From NCBI RefSeq assembly GCF_964355755.1, contig NC_092676.1, positions 15,914,288 to 15,978,287 on the forward strand: a DNA stretch of 64,000 nucleotides, read 5' to 3'. The notes beneath the pieces were generated by a model, which was given only the letters and a program-made list of their open reading frames with translations, ran no database searches and was not told the DNA's origin. Origin of the DNA: Antedon mediterranea (Eukaryota > Echinodermata > Crinoidea > Comatulida > Antedonidae). Below, piece by piece: positions 22,210 through 53,758 of the stretch. A program made the position numbers and the translations under genes. Within the stretch, counting starts at the first letter, position 1; the number at the start of each line of letters is the position of its first letter.

Positions 22210-24783
22210 ATGGAACACAACATTTATGCCTACAACAATTTACTGCAATCGGTTGAATTTCATGCAAATTGGAATCTTGAAAATACATCTAAATCATTTA
22301 AATCAGTCAAACAATCAATTGCAGAGCACAGAGAAGACAGAGGATCATTCACCATTGAGATTCTTCTATTTGAAAGTTACTTACATGTATCAAAGTTTAA
22401 AGGAAATATGATAAATATAGAAGAAGCTAAGAAAAAAAATGAAGAAGCTCTTGAGGAGATATCAAACTTACCTGATGGACCAATCAAAGATGGTTATAAA
22501 TCGATATACTGGGCATTCAAATATAAGTTTGCAACCGATTTTAAGCAGAAGAAAGAAAGTTACGAGAAACTCAAGGCACTTCTTACACAATATCAAAGTG
22601 ACAAAAAAACAGAATTTGATGCGAGTGTTTGTACAACCAAAGGGTTTGCACTTTCAATGTTATCAACATCAAGGTGCAAAGAAAGTGAAGACGAGCTGAA
22701 ACATGCAATTGAAATATGTCCACACAATGTTGAGTGGATGTTTCTGATTGGACACATAAAATGGCGAAGACGAACAAAAAATTTAACAAAGTACGAATGT
22801 TTTGGATTGAATGATGTTAAATCAATCATGGATGAAGTTTTGAAACTAGACGCTGATCATGCCTATGCAAAGGTGATCTTAGCTGATATATACAGAAGAG
22901 AATATGAAACAGAGTCTATAAATGCAGCAACCAACCAAGATATCAACCATCAACTTGTGTTTAAAAATGAGGAAGATCCTGCTGTAGTCAAAATAATGAC
23001 TTTACTCAAAGAAGCACAAGAACATGCTTCCACACCAAGAGTATTGAGTATTGTTGCTCAATGTTATATCCGGATGGGCAGTTGTACATGTAGAAGAATA
23101 AAAAACAACTGGAAATGTAGGCAGCCCAAATGTGATTCCAGATACTTCAAAGAAGCTCATAATGTTATAGAACATGCTAAAGAAACTTATGGTGAAGCAG
23201 CCTATATCTATGTTAAAGAGGCAGTTCTTTATCGGGAAAAGAATGAAAAAGGGAACAATTAGAATGTCTTGAGAGTGCCATCAAACTTAAACCATCTGAC
23301 ATTGGAGCCAGATTTCAACAAGTAAATGCCTTACGTTCAATTAGAGAACACAGCGAAATATGTGATATGTATGATAATTTACTACTTGAGTTTGATGATG
23401 ATCCATTTGAAAAGTTTGACATCAACCAGCAGTATGCATATTATTTGATATTAATAAAGCAATACGAAGAGGCAGTTTCAAGAAAACAAGTCTGTTTAGA
23501 TATTGCTCTTGAATCATTTGTGAAGACCATTTCTGGGAATGGACCTATTGAATTTATAGAGGAGTACCAAAGCTATGTTGAAAAACTAAATCAAATATTT
23601 ACAAAAATATTTTGATATCAAAATTGCAAAGTCAAATGGCCAAGGAAAAGTTGTACCAAACTTTAAAAATGCAAAGTTACATGAAAAGATAGGCGACGTT
23701 GAGAATGCTTTTACATATTATCAGGGAGCTTTAAAAGCATTTCACTCTGAACGCTTACCAAATCCAAATCAAGACCAAAAAAGAGAACTTCTCTTTAGTT
23801 TCGCCAGAGTGAATTTGAAGTTTGGTAGTCTTGATGTTTGCAGTAGCTATTATCAGAGGTGTGGATAAAATGAGAGATCAAGACAATGTCCATCAACTTA
23901 TCATGGACTTATTTCTAGCAAAAGGAGAGAAAGCAGCTAGAGATAGCATTAAAGCAATAAGAATGTTTACATGTACAACAGAAATGGGAAGTTTAGAAGG
24001 TGCAAAGCGACTATTAAAAGAAACAAACCAGATGAAAGACCTTGATGAAAGCGTGCTTTGACAAGTATTGCATCTGTTGCCAATGGAAATTGGTGTAAAC
24101 AGCTTAATCTGAAAGAGGAACTAGCAGCAATCTTGCCTTCTTGTGATGATGGATCTTTGATAGGGAAAGAATTAAAGACAGAGATTGCCAACTTGAAATG
24201 GAATTCAGCATTCTAATGGGTGATGATAATTTAGTGGCTAATTTATCGAATGTGCTACTAAAGGCTGTAATATACTCAACCATGCTATGGAGTTTTTTGA
24301 GAAAAAACATTATCCAAAATCTAAATCTGTGGATTTTATTATTGTTCAGAAATCCAAAAAACCTGTTGACCAAACAATCCAAGAAATACTGGTAAAAAAA
24401 GGATGGAATGATTTTGAAAATAGATTTACACATCTGTTAATGTATCTTTCATCGGTAAGTTTATTTTTGCATTCCACGTTTAGTTAAGAATAAAAGTTAA
24501 AATGCTTTAACTTTTCTCAACTGAAAAAAAAAACATGAGCCAGGTGGTGCATAGAGGTAGATCCAGGTGGGGCTATGGGCGGATCCAGGTGGGCACAAGG
24601 GCGCATCCAGGTGGGGCATAGGGGCCACAAAAAAAATTAGACTTTACAATCATTCATTTTATTTTTAGATTCAACCTGAAACTAATCCTAAGTTTCAATG
24701 GATGAAAGACTTTAGACATCTCAACAACAATGACAAACATCGACAACCACTACAAAACTCAAGAAAAACCATCTCAGTTGCAA
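22210..24783 (+). pseudogene. IFIT-like TPR gene copy 1, broken by frameshifts and a transposon
   Basis: The main coding exon follows a canonical acceptor (TTTTTGTTGACAG at 22202) and starts at ATG 22210. The first 351 residues are open and nearly identical to copy 2, with the IFIT-like N-terminal pattern (LLxSVExHxNWNLE) and helical TPR pairs. A one-base loss near 23245 then stops the frame at 23262. Further indels occur near 23590, 23830-23850, 24050 and 24170. The exon would end at 24454 (TCATCG, then GTAAGT) and a final short exon begins at 24669. In copy 3 this last exon reads on to a stop after VAIVF; here it is cut at about 24787 by the 6.2-kb transposon, and the rest of the exon resumes at 30960. 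A truncated TPR protein might still be made. Confidence 0.82.
24541..24630. repeat. Short GC-rich tandem repeat in the copy 1 last intron
   Basis: About four diverged copies of a 25-28-bp unit containing ATCCAGGTGGGGC. It is notable only because its base composition differs from the AT-rich surroundings. Confidence 0.6.
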
Positions 24784-26061: not shown

Positions 26062-29000
26062 TTAGCGTGTGGCCAGCAAATCAGCAAGATTATCATCGCA
26101 GGGTAACCCCTTGTAAAATTTCAATCTGGAAGGGGGCATCAATGGTCCTAACTGAGAAATGATGTGTTGTTTTTTTGTACTGTTTATTCCACGAGCAGTT
26201 GTCTTTGCTGGAAATACTAGTGAACCCTCTTCTATTTTACTGATTAACTTTTTCTTTAAAAATATGGCTGCATTGAACTGTCCATGATGGTCTGTTTTAT
26301 AATGTAAAGATGTTGAACCCTTTCTAAATTCTGCAACACTAACATTTTCTAGGAGTGGCCTAGTTTCCTTTGATTTCCTACTTTGGCTTAGGCCGCTTTC
26401 ATAACAAATAAAATCTTCAACTTTCATTTCATAGACTTTGCCAGCATTCTGGACACACATCACAAAATCATTCCAGTCTCCGACTTCCTTCATTTCATTC
26501 ATTTCTTTTTCCACCTGGCGGTGGAAACTGTCAGCAGACATAAATGTGTGCCCTACAGTGAAGTATTTTAGCGCAATTTTGTTTGGCCCATGAGGTGTAT
26601 TTACTAAATGAACTAAAGCAGTATATAATGTCCAATTCTTGTTCTGACCAGCACAATTATCCATCCAAATGACAAAGTTAAAGTGGTTCCTAAAGTTGAC
26701 ATTATCAATGGCTTTCACAAAAGCACTTGTCACATCTTCATCATTCCTGCCTGATAGACCTTCGTGCCATAGGATGCCTAGTGCTTCTTTTTTATGAACA
26801 GAGTGTTTGTTGATTGGGGCAAAAGTTTGATTAATCACAACTAAACGCCTTGTGAAAAGGCATACCTTATAACCAGGCAACCGTGGAATGAGAATCACTT
26901 TCTGCATGTCGGTTGATAAGTATAATGTATTTTTGTCTTCTTGAACTGAACTTTTATCAATTTTGTAAGCTTCCCTTGTTTTATCATAATTTTGTTTATG
27001 TTTTAACCAAAATGAACACTTCGCACACTGATTATCAGAACATACTTTAATGTCCTCATTGAATTTCTGTTTCTTCTGCCTTCTTACATCATCATTTTCT
27101 TTAGAACTACTTACATGGAGTTTATGTTCCCCACATATCTCACAGTCTTCAGTGCCAAGCTTTGCAAAACTGATATTGAGTGAAGTAATTGCTCTTGTAT
27201 ACGATACATAGCTTAGACATCTTTGTTCCTGTTTCCTGCATTCCTCCTGATAATCAGCATACATTATATTAATTGTCAATTCACTTGGTAAATATAAGCG
27301 ATTTGGGGCATGTTCACGACGGTAATGAGAGATATGTGGATGAAATGACATTATGTGGTTAACCATGAATTTGTTTTGATCTTCTGATATTTTGTGCTTA
27401 GGATTATGTTTGCCTCTCTTATCTTTGAGAGTTAAACCCATGGCTGATGTTGTTTTTAGTGCAGTAGTTACCACTTTATCACTTCTATGACCAATAGTGT
27501 GCAGAAACATGCATTTACAAACAAACACCTTTTCAGGAGGTACTATACCGGGTAACCAAAAATGTCTGGTTACATTTTTGGTCTGATGTTTCAATGGCCG
27601 TTTTGGTTTAATTTGTTCAATGTGGTTAAAAATCCATGATTTACGTTCATTGTAGGAGAGCTGCCAAAATGCAATGTGAATTTGTTTCCGATTTTCAAGA
27701 TCTAATTTTGTATAGCATTTCTTTTGCGAACATTGACAAGGAGGTAATAATGGATGCTTTGAAAGGGCCTCATCCATGTCAGACGCAGTATGATCCAAAT
27801 CTGTACTTCCACCAGCTTCACTATTGACAGATTCATCAGTGTCAATGTTACGAATAGATTCATCTACTTCAATATTTGGAATACCAGTTTCGGTATTCAG
27901 AATAGATTCATTGCCGTCAACATTTAAAGTATTTGGATCAATTTCAATCAGAATAGATTCAGTGGCTTCAATATTTGACATAAAATCAAGAATACTTGCA
28001 TTAATTTCAATATTGAAAATAGATTCATTCGCGCCAATATTCAGAGACTCATCTAATTCGGTATTCGGAATAGATTCACCGACTTCAGTATTCGGAATAG
28101 ATTCACCGACTTCAGTATTCACACTAGATTCACTGACTTCAATATTCACACTAGATTCACTGACTTCAGTATTCGCAACAAATTCACTGACTTCAGTATT
28201 CGGAATAGATTCACTGACTTCAGTATTCGGAATAGATTCACTGACTTCAGTATTCGCAACAGATTCACTGACTTCAGTATTCGCAACAGATTCACTGACT
28301 TCAGTATTCGGAATAGATTCACTGACTTCAGTATTCGCAACAGATTCACTGACTTCAGTATTCGCAACAGATTCACTGACTTCAGTATTCACACTAGATT
28401 CACTGACTTCAGTATTCACACTAGATTCATTGACTTCAGTATTCGGAATAGATTCACTGACTTCAGTATTCGGAATAGATTCATTGACTTCAGTATTCGG
28501 AATAGATTCACTGACTTCAGTATTCAGAATAGATTCACTGACTTCAGTATTCGGAATAGATTCATTGACTTCAGTATTCGGAATAGATTCACTGACTTCA
28601 GTATTCACACTAGATTCACTGACTTCAGTATTCGGAATAGATTCACTGACTTCAATATTCGAAATAGATTCACTGACTTCAGTATTCGCAACAGAATCAC
28701 TGACTTCAGTATTTGGAATAGATTCACTGACTTCAGTATTTGGAATAGATTCACTGACTTCAGTATTCGGAATAGATTCACTGACTTCAGTATTTGGAAT
28801 AGATTCACTGACTTCAGTATTCGGAATAGATTCACTGACTTCAGTATTCGGAATAGATTCACTGACTTCAATATTCGGAATAGATTCACTGACTTCAGTA
28901 TTCGCAACAGAATCACTGACTTCAGTATTTGGAATAGATTCACTGACTTCAGTATTTGGAATAGATTCACTGACTTCAGTATTTGGAATAGATTCACTGA

Positions 29001-29395
29001 CTTCAGTATTTGGAATAGATTCACTGACTTCAGTATTTGGAATAGCTGTAAAATAAAAAAATAAAAGTTGTTTATTTATCATTAGTCAAGGCAAGTAGTG
29101 CTGTAATGCATTCTCATTCTTTCCACACATTACCTTTAATAGGAATATCTTGAAATGGAGTATCTGGTGATTCATAAAGTAAATGATCTGAGTCAAATGG
29201 AAGTTCTTCACCGTCAACATCAAATGTGACAATCCATTTACTTCCATTTTTTCTTTTTACTGTCCCAAACAAACGTGCATCTCTCCATTTGTTCCCAAAT
29301 AAATTGTAAGACCAACGGGAAGTATCAGCAACATTTGGTTGGTCACACCTCCATGCCTCTGTGGACACTCTAGAATTAATTCTTATCCTCTGCAT
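26062..29395 (-). CDS. Transposase-like protein with long 9-residue repeat tract (1081 aa)
   Basis: Two exons, 29395-29134 and 29045-26062. The donor is ATTAAAG then GTAATG, the acceptor TTTTACAG then CTATTCC, and the split codon joins in frame. Residues 1-87 include a small beta-rich, Tudor-like segment (FGTVKRKNGSKWIVTFDVDGE). Residues 88 to about 430 are mostly repeats of IPNTEVSES. The C-terminal 550 residues hold Cys-rich pairs (CQCSQKKC, CEIC, CAKC) and a likely RNase-H/DDE-type core: LSTDMQK, then WMDNCAGQNKN, then HTFMSADSFHRQVEKEM. This pattern resembles the invertebrate family usually labelled DUF7869, from memory and unverified. ATG at 29395 lies just after a possible acceptor (TATTTCAG), so a 5' non-coding exon is possible. 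Role, inferred: mobilises the surrounding element. The frame is complete, so the element may be recently active. Confidence 0.8.
28060..29045 (-). repeat. 27-bp coding tandem repeat (about 36 units of IPNTEVSES)
   Basis: The 27-bp unit read on the plus strand, such as ACTTCAGTATTCGGAATAGA followed by TTCACTG, encodes IPNTEVSES on the minus strand. Variant units read SVNTEVSES, VANTEVSES or carry GES or NES. All units keep the frame because 27 is a multiple of three. The plus strand is also open across the tract (27824-29056), which I take as a by-product of the repeat. The peptide is acidic and rich in Ser/Thr next to Glu. Confidence 0.93.
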
Positions 29396-30059
29396 TTCTG
29401 AAATAATAAAAATAAATCCACTAAATTGTAGGAATATTTAGAGTAATTATAATTACAGTGGCTTTTTTGCTACTAATAATACAAAAAAGATAGGTTCCTG
29501 ATTCTAAGCCGCTATAAAAATCACATTTTAAGCTTCTGGAAACACTGTATAAAATGAACGTTTTCCTCAATAATTTTGTATCTGAAGTTCCTAGGTGTTC
29601 ATGTAAGGCACTACATAATACACTAATACTATAAGCCTAGCCTAGGCCTACAACTAATATAATAGGCCTAGCAGTATGATAGAATATTGCAGTTGCAATG
29701 ATAAAAAAAATAAAAAGGTAAAGGTACTTACCTATTAATATTTTTGTTTAGAATATTAATATTGTTGAACAAAAAGAGTTCTGCACATGGAGAAACTAAC
29801 ATGTGCTGATTGCTTGAAAAGTTTTCAGCCTTTTCCCAGAACAATCAAGATTTGATTAATATTAGTGATTATTAAAATATTTATCAACAATTGTATGGTT
29901 ATTCAAAAATATCATGACATGTTTTCAAATTTGAAGGATTTAAAAAACCACCAAAAATAAATACCAATTTGATTTTTTCTGTTTATAAGAAAAAGTTTTC
30001 TTGAACTTTTATATTATACTATCTGACATAATGAAGTAAAATCCATTGCTTCTTTTCAA

Positions 30060-30760
30060 TCCCAATTTAAAATATAGTACACCACTCAGAGTTTCTGATA
30101 AAAGGAAGTAAAAGGCATTGCTTCCTTTTGTAAGAATTATAAATATAGTACACTACTTACAGTTTCTGATAAAAGGAAGTAAAATGCATTGCTTCTTTTT
30201 GTAAGAATTATAAATATAGTACACTACTTACAGTTTCTGATAAAAGGAAGTAAAAGGCATTGCTTCTTTTTGTCAGAATTATAAATATAGTACACTACTT
30301 ACAGTTTCTGATAAAAGGAAGTAAAATGCATTGCTTCTTTTTGTCAGAATTATAAATATAGTACACTACTTACAGTTTCTGATAAAAGGAAGTAAAATGC
30401 ATTGCTTCTTTTTGTCAGAATTATAAATATAGTACACTACTTACAGTTTCTGATAAAAGGAAGTAAAAGGCATTGCTTCTTTTTGTAAGAATTATAAATA
30501 TAGTACACTACTTACAGTTTCTGATAAAAGGAAGTAAAATGCATTGCTTCTTTTTGTCAGAATTATAAATATAGTACACTACTTACAGTTTCTGATAAAA
30601 GGAAGTAAAAGGCATTGCTTCTTTTTGTAAGAATTATAAATATAGTACACTACTTACAGTTTCTGATAAAAGGAAGTAAAAGGCATTGCTTCTTTTTGTC
30701 AGAATAACAATATAGTTACACTGTACTTACCAGTTCTGACATAAGAAGTAAAAGCCATTG
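30060..30760. repeat. 71-bp subterminal repeat array, nine copies
   Basis: TTTCTGATAAAAGGAAGTAA recurs at 30092, 30163, 30234 and so on every 71 bp to 30660, with a tenth degenerate copy near 30731. Each unit also contains an inverted partner (CTTCTTTTTGTCAGAA), so every unit is a small imperfect palindrome. The core is the inner half of the element's terminal repeat. Subterminal arrays of this kind are usually transposase-binding sites; here that is inferred from position and sequence identity with the TIR. Confidence 0.88.
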
Positions 30761-30959
30761 ATTCTTTTTGTGATAAAGAAAATTACAAGATCATGTAGTT
30801 TACTTCTTTTTAAAGATATGTATCTCTGTAACAAATGACTGTTGAACTTTTTTTTTTATCAGAAATATTAGGTCTTGCTTTAAAAAAAAAAAAATATGAA
30901 AAAAAAAAAAAATATTTGAAATTGTGGGTTACTTCCTTCTGTCAGAAAGGGGCAGATAT

Positions 30960-31910
30960 GTGTTCTAACATTGAAGAAATAGTGGAAGAAATATACAAGT
31001 GGTGCTGGATGACTGCTAAGGAATGCTAACTTCCGGTTATAGTTTACAAGGTGAACATTTATGTGATTTTCTGATCAATTTTCCATTGCAAGGCCTGAAT
31101 AAGATTACATTAGATCATTATGTTAGAAATCATGTTGGAATTAAATGTGTCTTACCTAGTTTAGTAGTTAGATATAACCGAGATTAAAAATGTTTATCTG
31201 GTTTTGGATATTCATGAATTTTAAATTCTTTTCGAAAAAACAAAAATTTGCGAAACTAAACCTGCTTGACAGCTCGGACAGCTTCTTCAGAAGAATGATC
31301 GTTATATGATGTTGATAATGATGTTATATAGTAGTAATTATTTTAAATAGGCTTAAAAAAAGATTAGAAATTATTTACAAATCAGTTAATTTCAAATTCT
31401 ACTGATTTAATGAGGTTGTTCGTGCAACTGTTGGAAAAACGAGTTGTGCACAGCTTCTTGTCATGGCGCAAAATTAGAGAATGTTTTTCGATATGCACCT
31501 GTATGTTTAAAAGTGTAATATTAAGAAAATTAAGTGTTTACCTTCAAAACATTGAAAAGATGGTTTATTGGAATTTTATTTTCATTCTAAAATATTTTAG
31601 TGATTAGAGAACTTACTAACATTTAGTGACTTTGAACTTTGAATAGATAATGTTCAATGGTACAGTAGTTACTATTGAGATTTACATTACATTTTGTGCA
31701 ATGCTATACTGACAATATTAATGGTTATTGGTATTAATAAAGCTGTAGATATAAATGCAACTCATATTGTTTATTGCTTATTTTTATTTTGAATCCATGA
31801 AACATCTAAGTACAACTAGAAAGCCACTCCGAGAGTACATACCTCCGCATACTGTAAAATTCTCCTACATAAGATTTCTCCGGAAATATATATATATATT
31901 CTTTTTCCAG
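30960..31910. other. Rest of TPR copy 1 3' region, then unassigned DNA
   Basis: 30960-31030 (GTGTTCTAACATTGAAGAAA and onward) matches the sequence after the last exon of copy 3 at 53751-53815, so it is the displaced 3' end of copy 1. The remainder to 31910 has no gene. The stretch around 31255-31300 (GCGAAACTAAACC, CAGCTTCTTCAG) resembles retroelement flank sequence but is not classifiable. Confidence 0.55.
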
Positions 31911-35483: not shown

Positions 35484-35613
35484 TATATAAAAATAAATAA
35501 GTAATACATAAATATACATATCCAAAGGTAAATTACTAATAACAATAATAAAATAGGTAACTATAATAATATGCAAAACACTATTATTAAATATTTCTGT
35601 TGACAGTAGTACA

Positions 35614-37539
35614 ATGGAACACAACATTTTTGAATACGACAATTTACTGAAATCGGTTGAATATCATGTCAATTGGAATCTTGAAAATTCATCTAAATCA
35701 TTTAAATCAGTCAAACAATCAATTGCAGAGCACAGAGAAGACAGAGGATCATTCACCATTGAGACTCTTCTTTTTGAAAGTTACTTACATGTATCAAAGT
35801 TTAAAGGAAATACGAAGAATATAGAAGAAGCTAAAAAAAAGAATGAAGAATCTCTGAAGGAGATATCAAACTTACCTGATGGACCAATCAAAGATGGTTA
35901 TAAATCGATATACTGGGCATTAAAATGCAAGTTTGCAACCAATCTCAAACATAAGAAAGACAGTTACGAGAAACTGAAGGCACTTCTTACAGCATACAAG
36001 GGTGACAACAAAACAGAATTTGATGCGAGTGTTTGTACAACTAAAGGGTTTGCACTTTCAATGTTACCATTATCAAGGTGCAAAGAAAGTGAAGATGAGC
36101 TGAAACATGCAACTGAAATATGTCCACATAATGTTGAGTGGATGTTTCTGCTTGGACACATAAAATGGCGAAGGCGCACACACAATTTAACAAAGTATGA
36201 ATGTTTTGAATTGAATGATGTTAAATCAATCATGGATGAAGTTTTGAAACTAGACGCTGATCATACCTATGCGAAGGTGATCTTATCTGACATATACAGA
36301 AGAGAATATGAAACAAAGTCTTTAAGAAATGCAGCAACCGAACAAGGTCACAACCATCAACTTGTGTTTAAAAATGAGGAAGATCCTGCTGTAGTCAAAA
36401 TAATGACTCTACTCAAAGAAGCACAAGAACATGCGTCCACACCAAGAGTATTGAGTATTATTGCTCAATGTTATATCCGGATGGGTGGTTGCACATGTAG
36501 AAGAATAAAAAAGAACCTTACGTGTAGTCAGCCTAAATGTGATTCCAGATACTTTAAAGAAGCTCATAATGTTATAGAACATGCTAAAAAAACATGCGGT
36601 GAAGCAGCCTGTATCTATGTTCAAGAGGCAGTTCTTTATCGGGAAAAGAAGGCCACAAGAGAACAATTAGAATGTCTTGAGAGAGCCATCACACTCAAAC
36701 CATCGGACGTTGGAGCCAGATTACAACAAGCTGTCACCTTTGGTTCTTTTACGAAACAAAAGGAAATGTGTGACCTGTATGATAATCTACTCCTTGAGTT
36801 TGATGACGATCCATTTGAAAAGTTTGACATCAACCAGCAGTATGCACATTATTTGATATCAATAAAACTATTTGAAGAGGCAACTTTCAGAAAACAAGTT
36901 TGTCTAGATATTGCTCTTGAATCATTTGTGAAGTACACTTCTGAGAATGGACTTATCAAATTTATAGATGAGTATAACAGGTATGTTGATAAAATAATCA
37001 AATTTTTACAAAAACATTTTGATATGAGAATCAAAAAGTCAAATGGCCGAGGAAAATTTGTACCAAACTTAGAAAATGCAAAGCTTCATGAAAAGGTTGG
37101 TAACTTTGAGATTGCTTATAGTTATTATCAGGGAGCCTTGACAGCATTTCACTATGAATGCTCACCAAATCCAAACGAAGAGCAAAAAAGAGAACTTCTC
37201 TTTAGTTTCGCCAAAGTGAATTTGAAGATTGGTAATCTTGAGGTTTGCAGTAACATGTTAGCCATTATCAGAGGTGAGGATAAAATGAGAGATCAAGAAA
37301 ATGTCCGTCAACTTATCATGGACTTATTTGTAGCAAAAGGAGAGAAAGCAGCTAGAAATAGCATTAAAGCAATAAGAATGTTTACATGTGCAACAGAAAT
37401 GGGAAGTTTAGAAGGTGCAAAGCGACTATTACAAGAAACAAAACAGATGAAAGACATTGCCTTAAGAAAGCGTGCTTTGACAAGTATTGCTTCTGTTGCC
37501 AATGGAAACTGGTGTATACAAAGTGCAGCTTTTGCCAAG
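35614..37539 (+). CDS. Exon with TPR (IFIT-like) region of the fusion
   Basis: It starts at ATG 35614, seven bases after the acceptor TTGACAG, and ends at GCCAAG before GTACTT (phase 0). Without splicing it would stop at 37560 after six more residues. Homology with copies 1 and 3 is strong to codon 634 (NWC) and then ends abruptly inside the exon. Residues 293-309 form a Cys cluster (C-x-C-x8-C-x4-C) between two TPR helices, conserved in all three copies. This is the only copy whose TPR frame is unbroken. Confidence 0.9.
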
Positions 37540-40500
37540 GTACTTATACTTTTTTTTTAAAGTCCTTTCCTTAATAATTGTTTAATTAGTCTTGGTTCTA
37601 TGTTGCGACCCACATACTTTATAAGTTAAATCACACTGTAATATTATTTTGAATCACTTTATTATCATCTTTCATTCCTGTAGATCCAATATCACATTTT
37701 GCATCACACATTGAAAGTCTTTATAATAAATTTAGGAAAGTCTATCTTTACTTTTGTTCTTACACCATGGTCTTTGTACATTTAACCTTTTTTCGCAAAA
37801 TTATCAGCATACATTTTAATTACATTTTTAAAGCTACTTGTAGAAAATTCAGAAGTTCATTTGAATGATGACACCAAAACAGAGAGGTTTTTAGGTGAAA
37901 CACCTGCTTCACTTGAAGATACCATTCCAGTTACAACTCCAAATGCTTTTGTAAAAGCATGTAAAGGTAAATAACTTGAATTTAATCATATTTTAAATTG
38001 TACTAGTTTGTATTTTAATGTACGGATAATGTATGGCATTTCAACATTAAATGCTTCTAAGTTTACACTATTTACATTGTAGATGATTTGAATTGCATTT
38101 TAAAATGATGATTCCAAAATTGACTCCATTGTTGCATTTACTGTATTAAACAATGATAAATGTACAGTATAAGCTTCAGTTAAAATGTAGTAATGTGATT
38201 CTCTGTTGGTAGATATCTTAATAATGACTTACCTAATTTAACTATTTAAAAAAAAATTGTATACAGTAATTTGTTTTTGTAAGCTTAAATAAATCTTTTA
38301 AATTTAATAATACTGTAGAAATATCATACCTGTTTTCAGGCCGATTATTTTTTGTAGTGGTATACAGTACTTTTATCATAACATTATACTCGAGTAGCTA
38401 GATCAACTTTCGTGTGCACTTTGAGGTCCAGAGAATTTAACTTCAGAAATTGGTTTTGGGTGGTCAAAAAATCAATTTTGGCTTGGTTACACATTTTGAA
38501 AATGTGGCGAAAGGTCAAAAGGTCAGGGTGAAAGGTTATAATACCAAACACCAATAAGTCCTTAAATCTCGACAACCACTGGTCACATCAAGGTAATTTT
38601 GGTCTCAAATTGATCAGAAGGTATACATTTATATTCAGTCTAATGGGACATTTTATTAAAAAATGACCGGAAATGCCATTTATAACCTTTGACCCACAAC
38701 CCAGGGCATATATGTATCTTTCATTAGGCGCAGGAGCCCTGGATAGCGTTACGAAGTCGTTAACTCTGTCAGCCCATGGTCAACCCAACTAATGTGTTTT
38801 TCCCAAGGACAATTTATCAATAACTAAACTTTGTCACCACCCATAAGTGTGCTGTTCATTTCCTATTGACCAATGAACACCAATGTAACTGGACCTGAGT
38901 TTCTTGCTATTCGACCTTGGGTGCAAATTATACAATTAATTGATGTTAAGGCCATGCACTGACTACTCTTTTCTGTATAGAAACACTGAATTGACTGAAT
39001 AATAAGAAAACCCTACAATAATTTCTACTACTACTTGATATGGTGTTATACAAGAACTATATTAAAAGAATTGAATGCATGGAGAATGAAAAGTTAAACG
39101 TTATAACTTATATGTAAAACATCACTTAGATGATATCTATCAGATATATCATTTTCTAAAAATTGTTTCATTAGTTAGAATAGATCACGGAAAACCAATA
39201 CCAATACTGATCTGGACTCGGAAATTCAAAATGTAGCAGGCAACGTTTCACCAATGAAAACTTTCAAGACAAACAAAGTATCATAATTATCATGATATCC
39301 ATTTTTATTTAATAACGATAAATGGATATAAATATTTCGTTTTTTTTGTTATTTTGTGATGGAAAATATATTGAGTGAACATTGGCACTGAGCTTAAATG
39401 TTCCCCGTCCCCTTAATGTCCGCTTTATAGGAGTGTCCCCTCAGTAAGGATTTGCTGTTTTTCCCCTTAATAATAAATTATGATGTCCATCTTATCCTCT
39501 CAATTTTAATGTGCTACACCCGATAATAGAATACACATCTAGCTCGTGTGTACTTTAAAGAACCTAGTACATCTTTCGAGACGAGTGGGGGGTTACCCCG
39601 GTGTATTAGTACATCACAGCCACTGATCACCAACTGGGCCCTCTGGGAGACCAGTCTTTGACTGAAGAGGTTATTTCAATTCAATTCAATAGAATAACTG
39701 TACAGTAGGCTCCCATTTGATGCAATGTGTTACCCAATGTGCTCAATTTGATTGTGCTACCCAAATCCATGCTATCCATTTGAAATAATTTGCTATCCAT
39801 TTGAAAGAATGTGCTACCCGATAATCCGTATAGAATAATGTACAGTACAATTATATCCATTTGATTGTGCTACCTAATGTGCTATCCATTTGAAATAATG
39901 TGCTATCCATTTGAAAGAATGTGCTACCCGATAATCCGTATAGAATAATGTACAGTACACGTACTATATCCATTTGATTGTGCTACCCAATGTGCTATCC
40001 ATTTGAAAGAATGTGCTATCCATTTGAAAGAATGTGCTACCCGATAATCCGTATAGAATAATGTACAGTACTATATCCATTTGATTGTGCTACCTAATGT
40101 GCTATCCATTTGAAAGAATGTGCTACCCGATAATCCTTATAGAATAATGTACAGTACTATATCCATTTGATTGTGCTACCCAATGTGCTATCCATTTGAA
40201 ATAATGTGCTATCCATTTGAAATAATGTGCTATCCATTTGAAAGAATGTGCTATCCATTTGAAATAGGCCTAATGTGCTATCCATTTGAAAGAATGTGCT
40301 ACCCGATAATCATAGAATAATGTACAGTACTACTGTATATCCATTTGATTGTGCTACCTAATGTGCTATCCATTTGAAATAATGTGCTATCCATTTGAAA
40401 GAATGTGCTATCCATTTGAAAGAATGTGCTATCCATTTGAAAGAATGTGCTACCCGATAATCCGTATAGAATGCACAGTACAGTTATATCATAGTTATAT

Positions 40501-43500
40501 CCATTTGATTGAGCTATCTATTGTGCTATCCGTTTGAACTAATGTGCTGTCTGTTTGAAATAATTCAGGTTTTTTTTTTTAATATGTTTTGCTATCCATT
40601 TTAAACGTGCTAAACAAGTTACATATTTGTTGATATAAATTTGCGGTACACCACGTAGGCCTATATAATAATATATAATATAATATATATATATATAATA
40701 ATATAATATTAGTTCTGAAAAGAACTGTTGAGTTGCTTGACGTTTCGATTTAGGCCTACTCCAAAGTCAAAGTTTCCAAAGCTATTCCATCATGTCGTAT
40801 TCGGGGAATCGCCCACAAGTGTTTTCTCAGAGAAGGGTATGTTCTGTATGGGGTTCTGTATGCTATTTGTTAATAATGTACAAAAAATGAAATGAAAAAT
40901 CATATTAATTATCGGTTGTACGGAGGAAGCTCGAACAAGACGAAGCGCGAAACAAATAAAAGCGCAGCGCGAAACATCTGAAATGATATACAATTTCTCA
41001 AAACATGAAAACACAGAATATATTATATTAATATAACTTTTTAATATTTCCAAAGGCTCGGACAAGGAAGAAGGGCCTTAAAAAACTGAATTGCTAAATG
41101 TTAGACCACATTTCCATAACTTTTCAAAACTCATCAAACCCTCTGCTAGTAGGCCTAATTAATATAGGAGCGTATCGCCAAATCATTAGAAAAAAAAAAC
41201 ATGGCATGAAGATGTAATTAATCAAACAACGGCCAAAGAATACCAACAATTTTAATTTAGGTTTCGATTCGTAATTACTAATGTGGTGGACTAAGCCTAG
41301 TTTGAAACTATAGTGACCATTTATTTTAGAAAGAAAGATAGACAAATTTGTTTCCATCTCCATGTTATTGTTAATACCAAGGCACTTTTCAATTAAAAAT
41401 TCTGGCCTAGTATTCTTGCAAGGTCGTCACAGCTCCAGTTACAAAGGTCGTCACAGCTCCAGTTACAAACGGTGATACAAAGTGTCAATCATTTGACCAG
41501 TGAACAACCCACTGGTAGGATAGTCCTTGAAACCGTCCGTAAAACACATTAATCACTCACATCAGTCATGCCGCTAATGGTTGAAAACCTCACTTTTTGG
41601 GGTTTTCAAACGTAACGCTATCCGGGGCTCCTGCGCCTAATGTGTAACTGGTCGTAGACACTTGAATTTGGTCTTAAATTGTTCGAAATATACATTTTGT
41701 TATTTGTTACACATTTTTAAAAATTTTACAAAAGGTCAAAGGGTCAGGGTCAATGGTTATATGAACAAATATAAATAAGTACTTGTATCTCGGCAACCAC
41801 TGGTCGCAGTAAGCAATTTTGGTTTCAAGATGTTCAGAAGGCATGCATTCATATTCAGTCTAATGGGGCATTTTAGTCAAAAATTATCAGAAATGCCATT
41901 TTTGACCTTTGACCCACATACAAGGGCATTTTCCTGTCTCTGTAAGTACTGGTCGTAGAAACTAAATTTTGTATCAAATTGTTCGAAATATACATGATAT
42001 TTACATTCATTCTAATATAAAATTTGGTTAAAAGATGACCATAAATACTATACATTACTAACGTGATTGTTTCAAACAAAAAACATATCTACACAACTTG
42101 TCCTTGGACAGTAATGTTATGCAATAACGTATGCTTTAAATTGTTTCATTATAGGATTTAAAACAAATCCTTTTACTGTTTGTAATTGTATTTTTGCTTA
42201 TATGCTAGAAAGTATTGTTGACCACATTTTGATAGAAATGTCGAGCTCAACAGTTTTTTTCAGAATTCTAGATGTAACTTACCGAATTCATCCTAATATT
42301 AACGCCCCGGGCATTTATTATTCAGAAGGGTTTTTAGGGGAGCGTTTATTTTTTTTGGGTAGTATGATGACATGCATAATCAAATAAATACTACCTAGAT
42401 ATAAAAAAAATACATAATAATTTTATTCAAATTCATTGAAGCTGCATAGGATTAATTTAATTTATTATTTTTACTATAATAGGATTGCAGATTCAGGAAT
42501 ACAGTATGACCCACGCTACACGTGGAATATGCCTCATTATAAACAATATGCAGTTTACTAAAGAGAGTCAACTAAAAGAAAGAAAAGGTTCAGAGGTTGA
42601 CGAAGGTATATTACTTTCAATTTTAGGAGACTTTAAATGTAATATTGGAATTTCACTTCACTCTTCCCTGGTAGCATAGCTAGCTCTTCCCTGGTATCAT
42701 AGCTAGCTACAGTTAGCCCATGGTATTTAATTAAATTACAATCAAAGACTGAAATAGATCACTTTTTAAGACTAGCTGGTTTTATATCAACACTTTCTGA
42801 TTTAGCAGGTGCCTTTAACTTCACTTTTCTTTTTCACATTTATTTTTACTTGATCAATTCTCATGTCATCATCTTTCTTATCTTCCTTGACATCTATTAG
42901 ATATTACATAGTAAAAAATATAGCACACAAAAGAACAGTAAAATGAATAAAAAGATTCTTAGAATTTAGTCCAAGTATTAGATCCTACAAGGATAGACTC
43001 AGGCGTGTTATAATAGCGACTACTGTAATGCCTTCATGTTCATCTATATATAAATTATGGTTAATTCTGACATAGGCGAGCACAATGGAAAAACTTCATA
43101 CAAATCTCTGCCTTGGATACTTACCTTATCTATCTCAGATGTACCGCGAAACGTAGATTTGATAACGTTAGTTTCCACTATTACGATATTTCTATCATAG
43201 GAAGATATTATAAAGGGTTTTATAAGAAATTTTCTGATTTCAATCGGTAAATTTTAACTCTACGCGAGGTAGAAGTAATTTCCGGGTTCACGGTAAGGTG
43301 TGTCAATCATTGGTTTCAACCCGGGAGTTGTAAAACAACTCCCTGTTTCAACTAAGTTGGTGCTTGGTAGCCATTTTATTAATTTGTTTATTTTCGGACC
43401 GCGCGTGTGAAGGTATAGTAGTACATAAAGATCAAATTAAATATATTCATAAAACATTCATAAAACATAGGAGTAAATTGTGGGAAATAATTATATAAAA

Positions 43501-45009
43501 ATTACATCGAGAGAATTGATAAGATAAGATAAGTCAATGTCATGAACACAACAAGGCGAACATGAAATTGGTTTTTCCTTCATGCTTAAAAACACAATAT
43601 ATAAAACATTAAAAAATCAATACAATACATTAAAACTATATTAGTAAACAAGTTATATTTACAGAAGGAATAAAAAAACAACTATCTTTGAAATGTTGAG
43701 TTGGAAACATGAATGAATTTGTGGACAAATGATTTCCTACATCGAGTGGTATTGCACATTGATGAGATGATAAGAGCTTTTGTTTGAAATCGAATGAAAA
43801 CCCAATAGCCGGGTTGTTGAGTTAGCTGCCAGGACTTTATGTATACTGTGCACTATCTGTGTCCCGTCAGGACCCTGGGATACTTCTGCCCATGTTGAGA
43901 GCCGTCTAAAACGTCTTCCTTCTTAGGCCAAAACAGCTCACTGTGTCGCGGAATAATGTATTAATTATACCAATTAGGATGGTATTTATTAGAATAAACG
44001 CCCGGAACACCTCCCCAATAAAACATCAATGAAAATAATTATCGCCACTTTTTTTACCACTTTTCATCTACAATAAACACTATACGTAAAACGCTATTAA
44101 TCATCTAAGACACTGTGAAACAGGTTAGTGAGTAGGTTTAGTTTCACGAATATCAAAAGCATTTAAATAATGGTAACCGACCGAAATCGTCCAGGCCAGA
44201 ATGTCCTTCTAAAACCTTTTACCCGAGTCATTATCATTCCGAGAACCATCGTCTACACTTCCTAGAGGGGGAGCGAGCGAAGCGAGCTCACCCTCTAGTT
44301 TTAATAATAATGTTTAGTTTGTTTTTTAGTTTGTACTGAATTAACGGACTGGTAACATTTAAATTAATTTAATTCCTCAACAGCAAATCTGAAGCATGTT
44401 TTCAACTACTTGGGATTTGATGTTGAGGTGATACGCAATGCAACTGGCGAACAGATGATGAATAAAATAATTGATGTTCGTAAAATGGATCATTCCAAGT
44501 ACGATTGTTTCGTGTGCTGTATATTGTCCCATGGTGACCTTGGAAAAGTTTATGGCATTGACAGTGTCCCTTGTAAAATAATAGATATGACTAGTGCATT
44601 TCGTACAGGGTTTTGTAAGACACTAGCAAACAAACCAAAGTTATTCTTTCTACAAGCCTGCCAAGGAACTAGACGGGCTGAGCAACACGTGCAAAATATG
44701 GAAACAGACGATGCTCCACCTACTGCTAGGCCTACAGAGAATATCCCGGATGATGCTGATTTCCTGCTTGGATATGCCACAGCACCTGGCAACGTGTCAT
44801 ACAGGAGCAAGACCTATGGATCATGGTACATTACAAAGCTGACACAAAATTTGAAAAAATTCCACCATACCAATCACATACTAGATATCCTAACACAAGT
44901 GAATAATGAAGTAAGCCAGGCTATTGCTAATGAGTCTAATGGCTGTTATAAGCAGGTTCCAGCTCCCCAGTATACACTAAGAAAGAACCTATACTTTCCA
45001 AAATTATAA
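35614..45009 (+). CDS. IFIT-like TPR protein fused to caspase-8-like protease (935 aa, 4 coding exons)
   Basis: Coding exons 35614-37539, 37834-37966, 42483-42605 and 44384-45009 join with GT-AG junctions of phase 0, 1 and 1 and give one frame of 936 codons with the stop. Residues 1-642 are helical TPR repeats with the IFIT-like N-terminal pattern (residues 11-24, NWNLE). About 45 linker residues follow, then a caspase domain (about 690-935). Catalytic residues are His777 (LSHG) and Cys820 (QACQG). The two S1-pocket arginines are Arg720 (ERKGSEVDE) and Arg868 (VSYRS). IPDDADFLLG and the C-terminal TLRKNLYFP resemble caspase-8/10. Asp residues at 836-837 and 850-853 lie in the large/small subunit linker, where initiator caspases are cut. 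No DED or CARD is present: the TPR part takes that place. Inferred role: RNA- or pathogen-sensing trigger of caspase activation. The exon chain needs transcript proof; a separate caspase gene is the alternative. Confidence 0.78.
37834..37966 (+). CDS. Linker exon of the TPR-caspase fusion
   Basis: Acceptor ATTTTTAAAG at 37833, donor GTAAAG then GTAAAT; 44 codons plus one base, no stop. It enters in phase 0, matching the TPR exon, and leaves in phase 1, matching the next exon. It encodes a hydrophilic linker rich in Asp, Glu and Thr (ENSEVHLNDDTKTERF). A rival acceptor nine bases downstream (CTTGTAG) keeps the frame within the exon but skips three codons. It has no match in copies 1 and 3. Confidence 0.65.
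38395..38720. repeat. Degenerate tandem repeats, left block
   Basis: Units contain AACCACTGGTCNCA, TATTCAGTCTAATGGG and CCTTTGACCCACA. The same units continue after the inverted-repeat element at 41640-42060, so the element at 38727-41637 split an older array. The stretch near 38512-38526 holds AGGTCA-AA-AGGTCA, a direct repeat of the nuclear-receptor half-site. Confidence 0.65.
38727..41637. mobile_element. 2.9-kb terminal-inverted-repeat element in the fusion gene intron
   Basis: The left TIR 38727-38753 begins GGCGCAGGAGCCC; the right TIR 41611-41637 matches it inverted at 26 of 27 positions. TA flanks both ends (38725-38726, 41638-41639). The surrounding repeat unit is interrupted cleanly: its two halves on either side align with an uninterrupted unit at 41880-41960. 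No transposase was found, so the element is non-autonomous. Most of its middle is a minisatellite. Confidence 0.8.
39715..40565. repeat. Minisatellite of AATGTGCTATCCATTTGAA units
   Basis: About 21-bp units (GTGCTATCCATTTGAAAGAA) alternate with a higher-order spacer, ACCCGATAATCCGTATAGAA followed by TAATGTACAGTA, giving a nested period of about 110-140 bp. It lies inside the 2.9-kb inverted-repeat element. Plus-strand frames such as 40349-40537 are by-products. Confidence 0.88.
41640..42060. repeat. Degenerate tandem repeats, right block
   Basis: Continuation of the block at 38395-38720: units with ACTGGTCGTAGA, AAATTGTTCGAAATATACAT and CCTTTGACCCACAT, roughly 230-330 bp apart. AGGTCA-AA-GGGTCA occurs near 41741. 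Non-coding, within the intron between the linker and first caspase exons. Confidence 0.65.
42483..42605 (+). CDS. Caspase N-terminal exon (beta-1 strand and S1 Arg)
   Basis: Acceptor ATAATAG at 42482, donor GACGAAG then GTATAT, phase 1 at both ends. It encodes the typical caspase opening: EYSMTHATRG, CLIINNMQF, then ERKGSEVDE, which contains the S1-pocket Arg720. It lies 4.5 kb from the previous exon and 1.8 kb from the next. Confidence 0.85.
43053..43336 (+). repeat. Dispersed repeat B, copy 1
   Basis: About 285 bp, nearly identical to 45863-46174 (shared words AATTATGGTTAAT, TAGGCGAGCACAATGGAAAA, CGCGAAACGTAGATTTGATA, GGGTTCACGGTAAGGTGTGT). It lacks about 25 bp near its right end that copy 2 has. 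It lies in the intron between the two caspase exons, in the same orientation as copy 2. Confidence 0.85.
44262..44298. repeat. 37-bp stem-loop just before the caspase catalytic exon
   Basis: CTAGAGGGGGAGC pairs with GCTCACCCTCTAG (one mismatch) around GAGCGAAGCGA, followed by T. Same length, end sequence and loop type as 32834-32870. It sits 86 bp before the catalytic exon. The CTAG-T end after a GC-rich hairpin fits a Helitron 3' end on the plus strand, but a TC-type 5' end was not located. Confidence 0.65.
44384..45009 (+). CDS. Caspase catalytic exon (p20 remainder and p10)
   Basis: Acceptor CCTCAACAG at 44383; open to TAA at 45007-45009. It encodes LGFDVEVIRN, the His motif CCILSHGDLGKVYG, the Cys motif KLFFLQACQG, an Asp-rich intersubunit linker, IPDDADFLLGYAT, VSYRSKTYGSWYI and the C-terminal TLRKNLYFPKL. 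All residues required for caspase catalysis are present. Together with the previous exon this is the full length of a caspase-8-type catalytic domain. Confidence 0.93.
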
Positions 45010-48905: not shown

Positions 48906-49736
48906 TAGTTACCATACAAACTATTAAGCAGAACCAGCAATAAAATAAACATTTATATTTGTTTGACTGAAAGACATACTGTATAGGGAAATATGTTTAT
49001 TAACAATTAAAACAAAAATAAATGTTTATTATTGAATTAGATTTTAACAGTCATGTCACCTAATATTTGTTTAATTTTTGTTGACAGTAATAAAATGGAA
49101 ATCAACATTTCTGACTACAACAATTTACTGAAATTGGTTGAATTTCATGCAAATTGGAATCTTGAAAATTCATCTAAATCATTTAAATCAGTCAAACAAT
49201 CAATTGCAGAGCACAGAGAAGACAGAGGATCATTCACCATTGAGACTCTTCTATTTGAAAGTTACTTACATGTATCAAAGTTTAAAGGAAATACAATAAA
49301 TAGAAGAAGCTAAGAAAAAGAATGAAGATGCTCTTCAGGAGATATCAAACTTACCTGATGGACCAATCAAAGATGGTTATAAATCAATATACTGGGCATT
49401 AAAATGCAAGTTTGCAACCAATCTCAAGCAGAAGAAAGAGAGTTACAAGAAACTCAAGGCACTTCTTACAGCATACGAGGGTGACAAAAAAACATAATTT
49501 GATGCGAGTATTTGTACAACCAAAGGGTTTGCACTTTCAATGTTATCAACATCAAGGTGCAAAGAAAGTGAAGATGAGCTGAAACATGCAACTGAAATAT
49601 GTCCACAAAATGTTGAGTGGATGTTTCTGCTTGGGCATATAAAATGGCGAAGATTCACAAAAAATTTAGCAAAGTATCAATGTTTTGGATTAAGTGATGT
49701 TAAATCAATCATGAATAAAATTTTGAAACTAGACGC

Positions 49737-51589
49737 CAGGGGTGGCGCCAGGATCTTACCGACGCGGGGGCTACATTCCCCGACGAGGGGGGCTATGCGA
49801 GCGAAGCAAGCATCACAAGGCTGGGGGACAGGAAGCAACGCGTTCTAGCATCATTTGAGGTCATTTTAATCAGATTTAGGGTAGCCATTTTTTTCCATTT
49901 TTTATAATGCATAAATAAAATACTGCGTGCAAAAAAACGGTGCGCGACGACTGTTTCAATCCATATTTTTCAATTTAAAAAATAAAAGTTCAAAGAAAAT
50001 TTAGAAAAATAGAGTTGGAGGTCCTGGAAATTGGACTTATTATACTTCAAAACATGAAACAAAATATATAAGTCCCTATCATGGTTGTGACTGAGCTAAG
50101 AAATGTTTGAAAAATAGAGATGTTAGGTCCCGGAAAATGCACTTCTTGTACTTCGAAATATGACCAGCTTTATTGTTGGGGCTGAGCTAAGAAAATGTTT
50201 AAAACTAGAGCTGCATTTTATACTTTGGAAACATCAGGCCCAGAGGCTTAAAAAACGCAAGCGTAGACCTTTTCAGTCGGGGAAATAAGTTTATTCCTCC
50301 CAAGTGTATGCCTGCGTACCATCTGGACTTCCGAGTGGTGAGAAATTCATGACATACAGGACATTGAAAATTTAATAACTTAGCTATAATAAGATGTTGG
50401 CTAAGCGAAAATGGCATGTTTTTTTGTTTAGTAATGGATGAAATATTTATTTTAGGTGCCCCACGGTACAGAAGGTTACTTGTAAATTAAAAAATTGGTG
50501 AACCTACGAACAATTAACATAATTCGTTTTTGCTGTAGTGTAGCGTCGTCGACACAGTACACGACGTAACCGTCGGTAAACTTCGCCTGGAAAATAACTA
50601 CAGTACACATTTTGGTCCCTGGACGGAACATGATATCACGACCCAACGTTGAACGATTCGTACAAAGGGATACCGCCAGACAAGTGCGTACCTATAGCTA
50701 TTGTTTAGTAGTAAGTTAGATCGCTGGCGATAATGAATGCATATAAAGTGCATAATATCACTCTGACGTACTCTCACGGTCAATGAAACATCGAGGTTTT
50801 CTAGGGGCTGAAGCTACGAAGTGAACGCGAACGAATTATATTCCCCGACAAAAAGTACCCGAACCGTCGGTAAACTTCGCCTGGAAAATAACTACATTAC
50901 ACATTTTGGTCCCTGGATGGAACTTGATATCACCCGTCTCGACCCAACGTTGAACGATTCGTACAAAGGGATACCGCCAGACAAGTGCGTACCTAGCTAA
51001 TGTTTAGTAGTAAGTTAGATTGCTGGCAATAATGAATGCATATAAATTGCATAATAGCACTCTGACGTACTCTCACGGTCGGTCAATGAGACGTCGCGGT
51101 TTTCTAGGCGCTGAAGCTACCAAGTGAACGCGAACGTTTTTTACTGTATACAGTATTATATTCCCCGACAAAAAGTACCCGTGTTCCCTTCGGTAACCGT
51201 CGGTAAACTTCGCCTGGAAAATAACTACATTACACATTTTGGTCCCTGGATGGAACATGATATCACGCGTCTCGACCCAACGGTGAACGATTCGTACAAA
51301 GGGATACCGCCAAACAAGTGCGTACTAGCTATTGTTTAGTAGTTAGATCTCTGGCAATAATGAATGCATAAAAGTGCATAATAGCCCTCCTGACGTACTC
51401 TCACGGTCAATGGAACGTCGTGGTTTTCTAGGCGCTGAAGCTATATGAAGTGAACGCGAACGTTTTTTACTGTATATTATATTCCCCGACAAAAAGTACC
51501 CGTGTTCCCCGACGGGGGGTCTAGGCTCCCCGACGAGGGGGCTAGAGCCCCCGTAGCCCCCCCCCCCCCCCCCGCTGGCGCCACCACTG
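49737..51589. mobile_element. hAT-like non-autonomous transposon with 8-bp target duplication
   Basis: Termini are CAGGGGTGGCGCCAG and, inverted, CAGTGGTGGCGCCAG. The 8-bp duplication CTAGACGC is exact on both sides (49729-49736 and 51590-51597). Removing the insert and one duplication restores the paralogous TPR sequence (AAACTAGACGCTGATCATGC). Length 1853 bp. An 8-bp duplication and CAG-starting termini fit the hAT superfamily. No transposase; the interior holds about three long direct repeats and a C-homopolymer near the right end. Confidence 0.92.
50569..51510. repeat. Three roughly 300-bp tandem repeats inside the hAT-like element
   Basis: Copies start at ACCGTCGGTAAACTTCGCCT at 50569, 50863 and 51196 (periods of 294 and 333 bp). 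Shared words include GATACCGCCA, CAAGTGCGTAC and TATATTCCCCGACAAAAAGT. Differences are small indels. Confidence 0.9.
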
Positions 51590-53758
51590 CTAGACGCTGA
51601 TCATGCCTATGCAAAGGTGATCTTAGCTGACATATACAGAAGAGAATATGAAACAGAGTCTACAAGAAATGCATCAACAAACCAAGATGACGACCATCAA
51701 CTTGTGTTTAAAGAGGAAGATCCTGCTGTAGTCAAAATAATGACTCTACTCAAAGAAGCACAAGAACATGCTTCCACACCAAGAGTATTGAGTATTGTTG
51801 CTCAATGTTATATCCGGATGGGCAGTTGTACATGTAGAAGAAAAAAAAAACAACTGGAAATGTAGTCAGCCTAAATGTGACTCCAGATACTTTAAAGAAG
51901 CTCATAATGTTATAGAACATGCTAAAGAAACATGTGGTGAAGCAGCCTGTATCTATGTTCAAGAGGCAGTTATTTACCGGGAAAAGAATGAAACAAGAAA
52001 ACAATTACAATGTCTTGAGAGTGCCATCAGACTCAAACCATCTGACATTGGAGCCAGAATACAAGTAAATGCCCTCCATTTAATTAGAGAACACAGCGAA
52101 ATATGTGATATGTATGATAATCTCCTCCTTGAGTTTGATGACGATCCATTTGAAAAGTTTGACATCAACCAGCAGTATGCACATTATTTGATATCAATAA
52201 AACTATATGAAGAGGCAACTTTGAGAAAACAAGTTTGTTTAGATATTGCTCTTGAATCATTTGTCAAGAACACTTCTGGTATTATGGACCTATTGAATTC
52301 ATAGATGAGTACCAAAATTATGTTGATAAACTAATCAAATATTTACAAAAACCTTTTGATATCAAAATCCTAAAGTTAAATGGCCAAGGAAAATTTGTAC
52401 CAAACTTAGAAAATGCAAAGCTTCATGAAAAGGTTGGTAACTTTGAGATTGCTTATAGTTATTATTAGGGAGCCTTGAGAGCATTTCACTATGGACGCTT
52501 ACCAAATCCAAACCAAGAGCAAAAAAGAGAACTTCTCTTTAGTTTCGCCAGAGTGAATTTGAAGATTGTTAATCTTGATGTTTGCAGTAACATGTTAGCC
52601 ATTATCAGAGGTGAGGATAAAGATCAAGAAAATGTCCGTCAACTTACCATGGACTTATTTGTAGCAAAAGGAGAGAAAGCAGCTGGAGATAGCATTAAGC
52701 AATAAGAATGTTTACATGTGCAACAGAAATGGGAAGTTTAGAAGGTGCAAAGCGACTATTACAAGAAACAAAACAGATGAAAGACCTTGCCTTAAGAAAG
52801 CGTGCTTTAAAAAGTATTGCATCTGCTGCCAATGGAAACTGGTGTCAACAGTTTAATCTGAAAGAGGAACTAGCAGCAATCTTGCCTTCTTGTGATGATG
52901 GATCTTTGATAGGAAAGGAATTAAAGACACTAAGAGATTGCCAACTTGAAATGGAATTCAGCATTCTAATGGGTGATGATAATTTAGTGACTAATTTATC
53001 AAATTGCTCCATGCTATGGAGTTTTTTGGGAAAAAACATTATCCAAAATCTAAATCTGTGGATTTTATTATTGTTCAGAAATCCAAAAAACCTGTTGACC
53101 AAACAATCCCAAGAGATACTGGCAAAAAGAGGATGGAAAGATTTTTAAAGTAGATTTACACACCTGTTAACATATCTTGCTTCGGTAAGTTAACATTTGT
53201 GATCAGAATTTTTTTGTTCAAATCACATTTTAATTGTTTGAAGGAAATGGCAAGTGTGTGCAAACTAAGACTATGACACTGACAGCATGGAGGTGCTGAC
53301 AGCATGTATGTATAAGCTGTTACATTGGGATGGTATACGAAAGGAGACGGTAAATTAACAGAGTGTGATGGTTAAATTAATCAAATACAGTCGCTATGAT
53401 GAACAGAACAGAGTGTACTGGGCTTATATGCATTATACGCAGTTTTAGTCCTTTGTATTTAAAGTTACTGTCTCCTTCGTTTACCGTGCCAATGTGAAAG
53501 TTCAATAGTATGATTTCAAGTACAGTATAACCTATTTATCCTTTAGTTGATAAAATTTGATATATTTTTCTACTCATCATTACTAAATGAATACTACTCT
53601 ACTTAAAACAGTTCATTTTATTTTCTTATAAGATTCAACCTGAAACTAAGTCCAAGTTTGAATGGATGAAAGACTTTACTTGTCTCAACAACAATGACAA
53701 ACATCGACACTCACTACAAAACTCAAGAAAAACCATTGCTGTTGCAATTGTGTTCTAA

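Follow-up and report, generated by a model that had tools for sequence, protein, structure and literature searches.

Initiator caspases are normally recruited via death-fold domains. Proteins in which a sensor or a tetratricopeptide repeat (TPR) module is joined to a caspase or caspase-like protease are already known from oysters, a coral and bacteria. Here we examine a four-exon gene (35614..45009) in a stretch of 64,000 nucleotides from the crinoid Antedon mediterranea (assembly GCF_964355755.1, contig NC_092676.1, positions 15,914,288 to 15,978,287, forward strand; hereafter the window, in the numbering of which all coordinates of this locus are given). It is probably a recent chimeric gene of this species, combining a TPR half with a predicted shape like that of the IFITs, the interferon-induced antiviral proteins of vertebrates, with a caspase-8-type half, and the placement of an IFIT-shaped solenoid on caspase-8 is new as far as our searches go.

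According to PMC7836458, the Cg3C-like caspases of oysters carry two DSRM (double-stranded RNA-binding) domains, i.e., a putative RNA-binding module stands directly N-terminal of the caspase, as in the crinoid fusion. However, this module is a double-stranded RNA-binding domain and not a TPR, and the oyster proteins group with caspase-3-type enzymes, not with caspase-8; no dsrm family occurs among the five Pfam matches of the Antedon product (E ≤ 1). The bacterial TPR-CHAT protein (Csx29), part of Craspase in a type III-E CRISPR system, also joins a TPR part with a caspase-like protease, which is described in PMC9729208 as activated by non-self RNA and as resembling separase. It differs in its bacterial origin, in its CHAT/separase protease, in the lack of a C14A domain and in the recognition of RNA by the gRAMP partner, whereas Peptidase_C14 is the sole protease family among the five Pfam matches of the fusion and no CHAT/separase domain is found there. 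A predicted protein of the coral Orbicella faveolata (LOC110055858 isoform X6; P0012) has TPR repeats upstream of its caspase domain, but these are TPR_12-type repeats, the N-terminal regions are otherwise different and the identity of 39% is confined to the caspase part; no TPR is listed among the precomputed domains of isoform X7 (P0011).

The more familiar counterparts of the two halves are caspase-8/10, initiator caspases of metazoans (C14A), and IFIT1/IFIT5. With the former the fusion shares a complete catalytic domain, for which the top six solved matches are all caspase-8 and the nearest homologue, P0003 of the same species, has DED and Death domains; the fusion differs in having neither, with a TPR solenoid as N-terminus in their place. 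With IFIT1 and IFIT5 it shares the predicted fold of exon 1, although its TPR half is approximately 100 residues longer and has no sequence match to IFIT chains in the PDB. A reading made from the sequence alone had claimed that no IFIT-caspase fusion has been described. Of exactly this pair we indeed found none, and no report of an IFIT-shaped solenoid fused to caspase-8 appears among the literature titles and abstract openings listed, nor is a TPR-caspase architecture mentioned in the consulted parts of PMC8195603 and PMC2246300; the claim is too broad, however, in view of the related oyster, coral and TPR-CHAT fusions.

Gene Model and Exon Structure

All four exons lie on the forward strand. 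The window maps to contig C7 (30.5 Mb) of a genome of 354 Mb in 18 contigs. Exon 1 (35614..37539) encodes residues 1-642 with the predicted IFIT-like TPR fold, exon 2 (37834..37966) is a linker exon of 133 bp of untraced origin, the caspase domain begins in exon 3 (42483..42605), and exon 4 (44384..45009) holds the remainder of this domain with H777, C820, the METD836 linker motif, R868 and the stop codon. Intron 2 (37967..42482) is rich in repeats; intron 3 (42606..44383) contains a segment (43044-44298) without counterpart in sister copy D, a second copy of exons 3 and 4 discussed below. Together the exons comprise 2808 nt, i.e., 935 amino acids and a stop. The single frame of 935 residues from four GT-AG exons proposed in the sequence-only reading was recovered with the same exon coordinates: GT follows every donor, AG precedes every acceptor, and the phases are compatible across all three introns. 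Furthermore, an uncharacterized Antedon mediterranea protein in public databases (P0001) is identical to the spliced product (100% identity over 100% of the 935 aa), and an annotation made elsewhere has thus arrived at the same four-exon model. We consider this gene model sound, with a predicted joint.

Exon 2 is indispensable to the model, or at least an equivalent of it, because the phase is 0 at the end of exon 1 but 1 at the start of exon 3, and direct splicing from the donor at 37539 to exon 3 would break the frame. The eight codons that close exon 1 (IQSAAFAK) show no recognisable TPR-family sequence and, as far as we can trace them, these codons and exon 2 appear to derive from neither parent. 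The base composition of exon 2 (0.353) is unremarkable, as 37% of the intron windows are equally high.

Identity and Origin of the Caspase Half

A complete catalytic domain of caspase-8 type, with the catalytic dyad and both S1 arginines, in a protein whose death-fold prodomain has been replaced, was the second element of the sequence-only reading, and our analysis bears it out. Pfam Peptidase_C14 matches residues 700-931 over the full profile (1-233 of 233; E 1.7e-60), H777 lies within SHGD and C820 within QACQG, and R720 and R868 occupy columns common to the other caspase rows of the alignment; we take these two arginines to belong to the S1 pocket. Among the best 60 of 223 PDB matches, caspase-8 (157 bits) precedes caspase-7 (132) and caspase-3 (129), and the nearest proteins are DED caspases. 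The closest of these, P0003, is a caspase-8-like Antedon protein of 617 aa with a DED (two stretches), a Death domain and a C14 domain, encoded at 9.12 Mb of contig C2. Its homology to the fusion starts at most one residue from the 5' border of exon 3 and extends to the C-terminus (214 of 250 residues identical; 86%), and P0001 and P0003 are sisters with a support of 100/99 in a tree of 12 rows whose deeper forks remain open.

Sister copy D, which comprises exons 3 and 4, is located at 37.524-37.525 Mb of contig C2 and is approximately 89-90% identical to the fusion over exons and adjoining introns. The silent distance of the fusion caspase is 0.105 to copy D and 0.292 to P0003. Since pieces of intron 2 from 38387 onward are collinear with copy D (91-94% identity), the caspase block was probably duplicated along with intron sequence, although these outer pieces are repeats with copies elsewhere and are weaker evidence. 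In the 59.9 kb around copy D there is no match (E 0.01) to the TPR-family protein P0002 or to the DED/Death part of P0003, so that the prodomain was apparently left behind when the block was copied. At the fusion locus itself Pfam finds no tandem DED prodomain of the caspase-8/10 kind in the model, and residues 1-372 of P0003 (DED, Death and linker) find no match with an E below 8 in the window, and none at E 0.01 in the 40-kb flanks. A hidden DED exon upstream of exon 3, which had been raised as a possibility, is thus unsupported in the window and its 40-kb flanks; CARD was not searched as such.

Selection on the caspase codons was assessed by polarising changes with P0003 as outgroup, against a neutral share of 0.79. 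The fusion branch carries 9 silent and 5 replacement changes (p 0.0005 versus neutral), the branch of copy D 4 and 13 (p 0.49) and that of P0003 19 and 17 (p 2.5e-5); the split differs between fusion and copy D (Fisher p 0.03), although these counts are small. Fusion and P0003 differ at 29 of 235 comparable columns. The 95 columns that are invariant in four outgroup caspases contain a single one of these differences, which arose in P0003, not in the fusion. Whatever its transcript, the caspase at the fusion locus has therefore probably been maintained in working order since its split from copy D, while copy D evolves as if neutral.

Two further observations concern caspase sequences elsewhere in the genome. 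A run of eight caspase-domain exons on one strand (G000:C5:22.03-22.14 Mb) represents a local caspase expansion in Antedon, and a retroelement-like open reading frame (ORF) of 443 aa lies directly upstream of copy D (L012, 3660-4991, minus strand).

The TPR Half and Its Likeness to IFIT

Exon 1 was predicted with a pLDDT of 80.6 and a pTM of 0.73 (six sequences). Foldseek places IFIT5 in the first four positions for this model (best E 2.4e-9; TM to target 0.68-0.73), followed by a Ctr9 complex (4.6e-8; low TM). In VIA-align rows 1 to 13 are all IFIT entries, with scores of 26.8-25.7 for IFIT5, 24.4-23.7 for IFIT1 and IFIT1-IFIT3, 20.1 for IFIT2/ISG54 and 19.9 for an N-terminal IFIT1 fragment, and IFIT5 aligns over its whole length to residues 1-540; the first non-IFIT chains (Tom70 and LGN, 19.6) equal the last two of these rows in score, and the mouse IFIT2-IFIT3 heterodimer (17.9) falls among the non-IFIT chains. 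An IFIT-type TPR fold is thus predicted over the full length of an IFIT protein, and the model supports a likeness in shape to IFIT5 and IFIT1. Sequence searches give a different picture: phmmer with exon 1 against PDB chains yields no match at E ≤ 10, hence no IFIT, and none of the 58 matches of a TPR-family profile to PDB chains is named IFIT. According to PMC3688568 the IFIT family is placed in jawed vertebrates, with none identifiable in sea urchin. Of the claim that these are IFIT-like TPRs, the part on shape stands; membership of the IFIT family does not, and the modelled likeness is one of fold for which the PDB-chain searches do not support descent. The model suggests that an IFIT-like fold may exist in echinoderms without sequence similarity, which would bear on the age of the IFIT architecture. 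A shared fold is, however, no demonstration of RNA binding.

In terms of sequence, exon 1 belongs to a family comprising P0002 (829 aa), P0016 and P0017 of Antedon, P0018 of Anneissia japonica and the remote, unnamed P0019, i.e., six proteins with P0001, drawn from the 7998 candidates sharing most words. A domain search of the 935-aa model, proposed in the sequence-only reading, gave besides the full-length Peptidase_C14 two faint TPR matches, both below the Pfam cut-offs, and NCBIfam gave no informative match. The two relatives of exon 1 in the window are TPR copies A and C, both on the forward strand and 89-93% identical to it; in the 40-kb flanks of the window P0002 has no match (E 0.01). 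Copy A (22210..24481, with further 3' pieces at 24669-24797 and 30949-31023) has a frame broken by four frameshifts and one stop relative to exon 1, and copy C (49095..53187, with a further piece at 53606-53746) by four frameshifts, two stops and an insertion of 1853 bp. Both retain the normal 3' part of the TPR family. Exon 1 lacks this part: the segment homologous to its neighbours (35593..37515, forward strand) begins at an acceptor-like site just 5' of the start codon and breaks off abruptly within the exon, behind Cys634. Its frame is intact over 633 codons, without a frameshift or stop, for which the contrast with the broken neighbours gives a rough Poisson probability of 0.0006. The silent distances of the fusion are 0.112 to copy C and 0.178 to copy A. 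The former is close to the caspase distance of 0.105 to copy D, which is consistent with a single period of rearrangement.

An effector domain was suspected in the lost C-terminus of the TPR family, but the model of P0016 is too weak (pLDDT 64.5) and this idea was dropped. Just before the start codon of all three TPR copies (22210, 35614 and 49095) stands an acceptor-like TTGACAG, which suggests an unseen 5' untranslated exon. Exon 1 also contains a cysteine cluster, CxCx(8)Cx(4)C (36484-36548; near residues 295-310), a possible metal knuckle; P0002 has CxCx(6)Cx(4)C, the fourth cysteine is missing from P0016 and P0017, and P0018 of Anneissia lacks the cluster.

Proposed Origin and Mode of Action

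The chimera probably arose when the two final exons of a caspase-8-like gene were duplicated without the DED and Death domains and landed behind an IFIT-shaped TPR gene that was itself a tandem duplicate. The exon of this TPR gene, truncated behind codon 634, would now provide the start codon and N-terminus, and the short linker exon would connect it to the protease. A caspase-8 would in this manner apparently have exchanged its death-fold module for a scaffold of IFIT-like shape. Because relatives of each half persist, together with a near-neutral sister caspase and two dead TPR paralogues, the steps of this exon shuffling can be dated and tested.

Caspase-8 is activated by induced proximity. 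With the DEDs lost, the solenoid is the obvious recruiter and may have taken over as recruitment and oligomerising module. Binding of a ligand, either a protein partner or RNA, would pair the caspase domains, either with one another in homodimers or with the parental caspase-8 (86% identity) in heterodimers; these dimers might then process themselves at METD836, a motif also present in P0003 and, with the following aspartate, presumably at the position of caspase-8's own VETD processing site, and act on substrates further down death or inflammatory pathways. The fusion is a compact candidate for adaptor-free caspase activation. A bolder version, in which the solenoid would capture non-self RNA ends and RNA-driven assembly would activate the protein's own caspase-8, bypassing death-fold adaptors, would make it a one-protein animal RNA sensor-protease and, by analogy, a parallel to Craspase attained through exon shuffling; we regard this version as very doubtful.

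Weighing the Alternatives

Several results count against a functional fusion gene. The weakest link is exon 2: 13 of the 1164 AG..GT segments of 100-200 bp between 37540 and 42482 (that of exon 2 included) are open with the right frame and exit phase, so that a usable exon is available in this interval by chance. Furthermore, no relative of exon 2 was found among 5.8 billion proteins (13 candidates, within length limits), and its comparisons with the P0003 gene, sister copy D, P0002 and P0004 score no better than shuffles. That the exons are spliced together in vivo we infer from the sequence. The same architecture was not found in a second species by protein searches that are word-based and length-limited, as are our homology searches in general, so that further cases may exist. 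The TPR half is the weaker half of the case. Exon 1 has fewer unique amino-acid changes in conserved columns than expected (8 versus 17.1; P 0.003) and copy C about as many (8 versus 9.4), but the dead copy A avoids these columns likewise (5 versus 14.2; P 0.0009), and the test does not, therefore, mark out a live gene. Unique codon changes have a replacement to silent ratio of 49:17 in exon 1 and of 41:23 and 24:10 in the dead copies, and at columns identical in at least three TPR-family members exon 1 departs in 33 of 200, the dead copies in 33 of 198 and 27 of 197. Strong constraint on the TPR half was rejected on these ratios and counts; selection on it appears weak or partly relaxed, and we read exon 1 as a sequence with a maintained frame and a relaxed or changing constraint.

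The alternative that survives best, unlikely in our view but to be taken seriously, is that gene prediction merged two adjacent units. Exons 3 and 4 would then form a short, prodomain-less caspase with its own promoter, whose translation might begin at an in-frame Met in exon 3 (that of MTHATRG, for instance). The TPR exon would be a copy by itself that has lost its 3' part and terminates at the stop codon 37558-37560. The TPR frame indeed stays open for only six codons beyond the donor, an AATAAA occurs at 37725 (a motif common in the AT-rich DNA here) and exon 2 could be due to chance, whereas the public model P0001 joins both halves and the phases fit through all three introns. The selection signal requires the caspase alone, copy D also has no TPR sequence nearby, and 24 of 46 bivalve caspases lack a specific prodomain according to PMC7836458; against two separate units, the TPR frame is intact where both neighbouring copies are broken.

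A second alternative, which overlaps with the preferred chimeric gene, accepts the fusion but makes it a regulator that heterodimerises with the parental caspase-8, tuning it in the manner of c-FLIP or linking it to a TPR partner. The 86% identity of the caspase domains makes such heterodimers plausible, but the catalytic dyad, the S1-type arginines and the METD linker motif are all retained and purifying selection on the caspase fits an active enzyme, and we consider a regulatory role improbable. A functionless, neutral young chimera or pseudogene is highly unlikely: the copies are young (see the silent distances above), the fusion was found in a single species and its TPR part is weakly constrained, but the caspase codons are under selection, all frames are intact and the invariant caspase columns are unhit on the fusion side.

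Other Features of the Window

The insertion in TPR copy C (49737-51589, 1853 bp; region 49729-51597) is flanked by an 8-bp direct repeat, CTAGACGC, and has inverted ends, CAGGGGTGGCGCCAG / CTGGCGCCACCACTG; we take it to resemble a hAT-type DNA transposon. On the minus strand at 26062-29085 lies an ORF of 1007 aa with a match to DUF7869 (E 2.1e-6), perhaps transposon-associated, the N-terminal third of which consists of approximately 36 copies of a 9-residue repeat (a 27-bp array at 28057-29045). A 71-bp tandem array extends from 30022 to 30771, in the interval separating the 3' pieces of TPR copy A, and its unit holds TCTGATAAAAGGAAG, which also occurs near 24800 in copy A.

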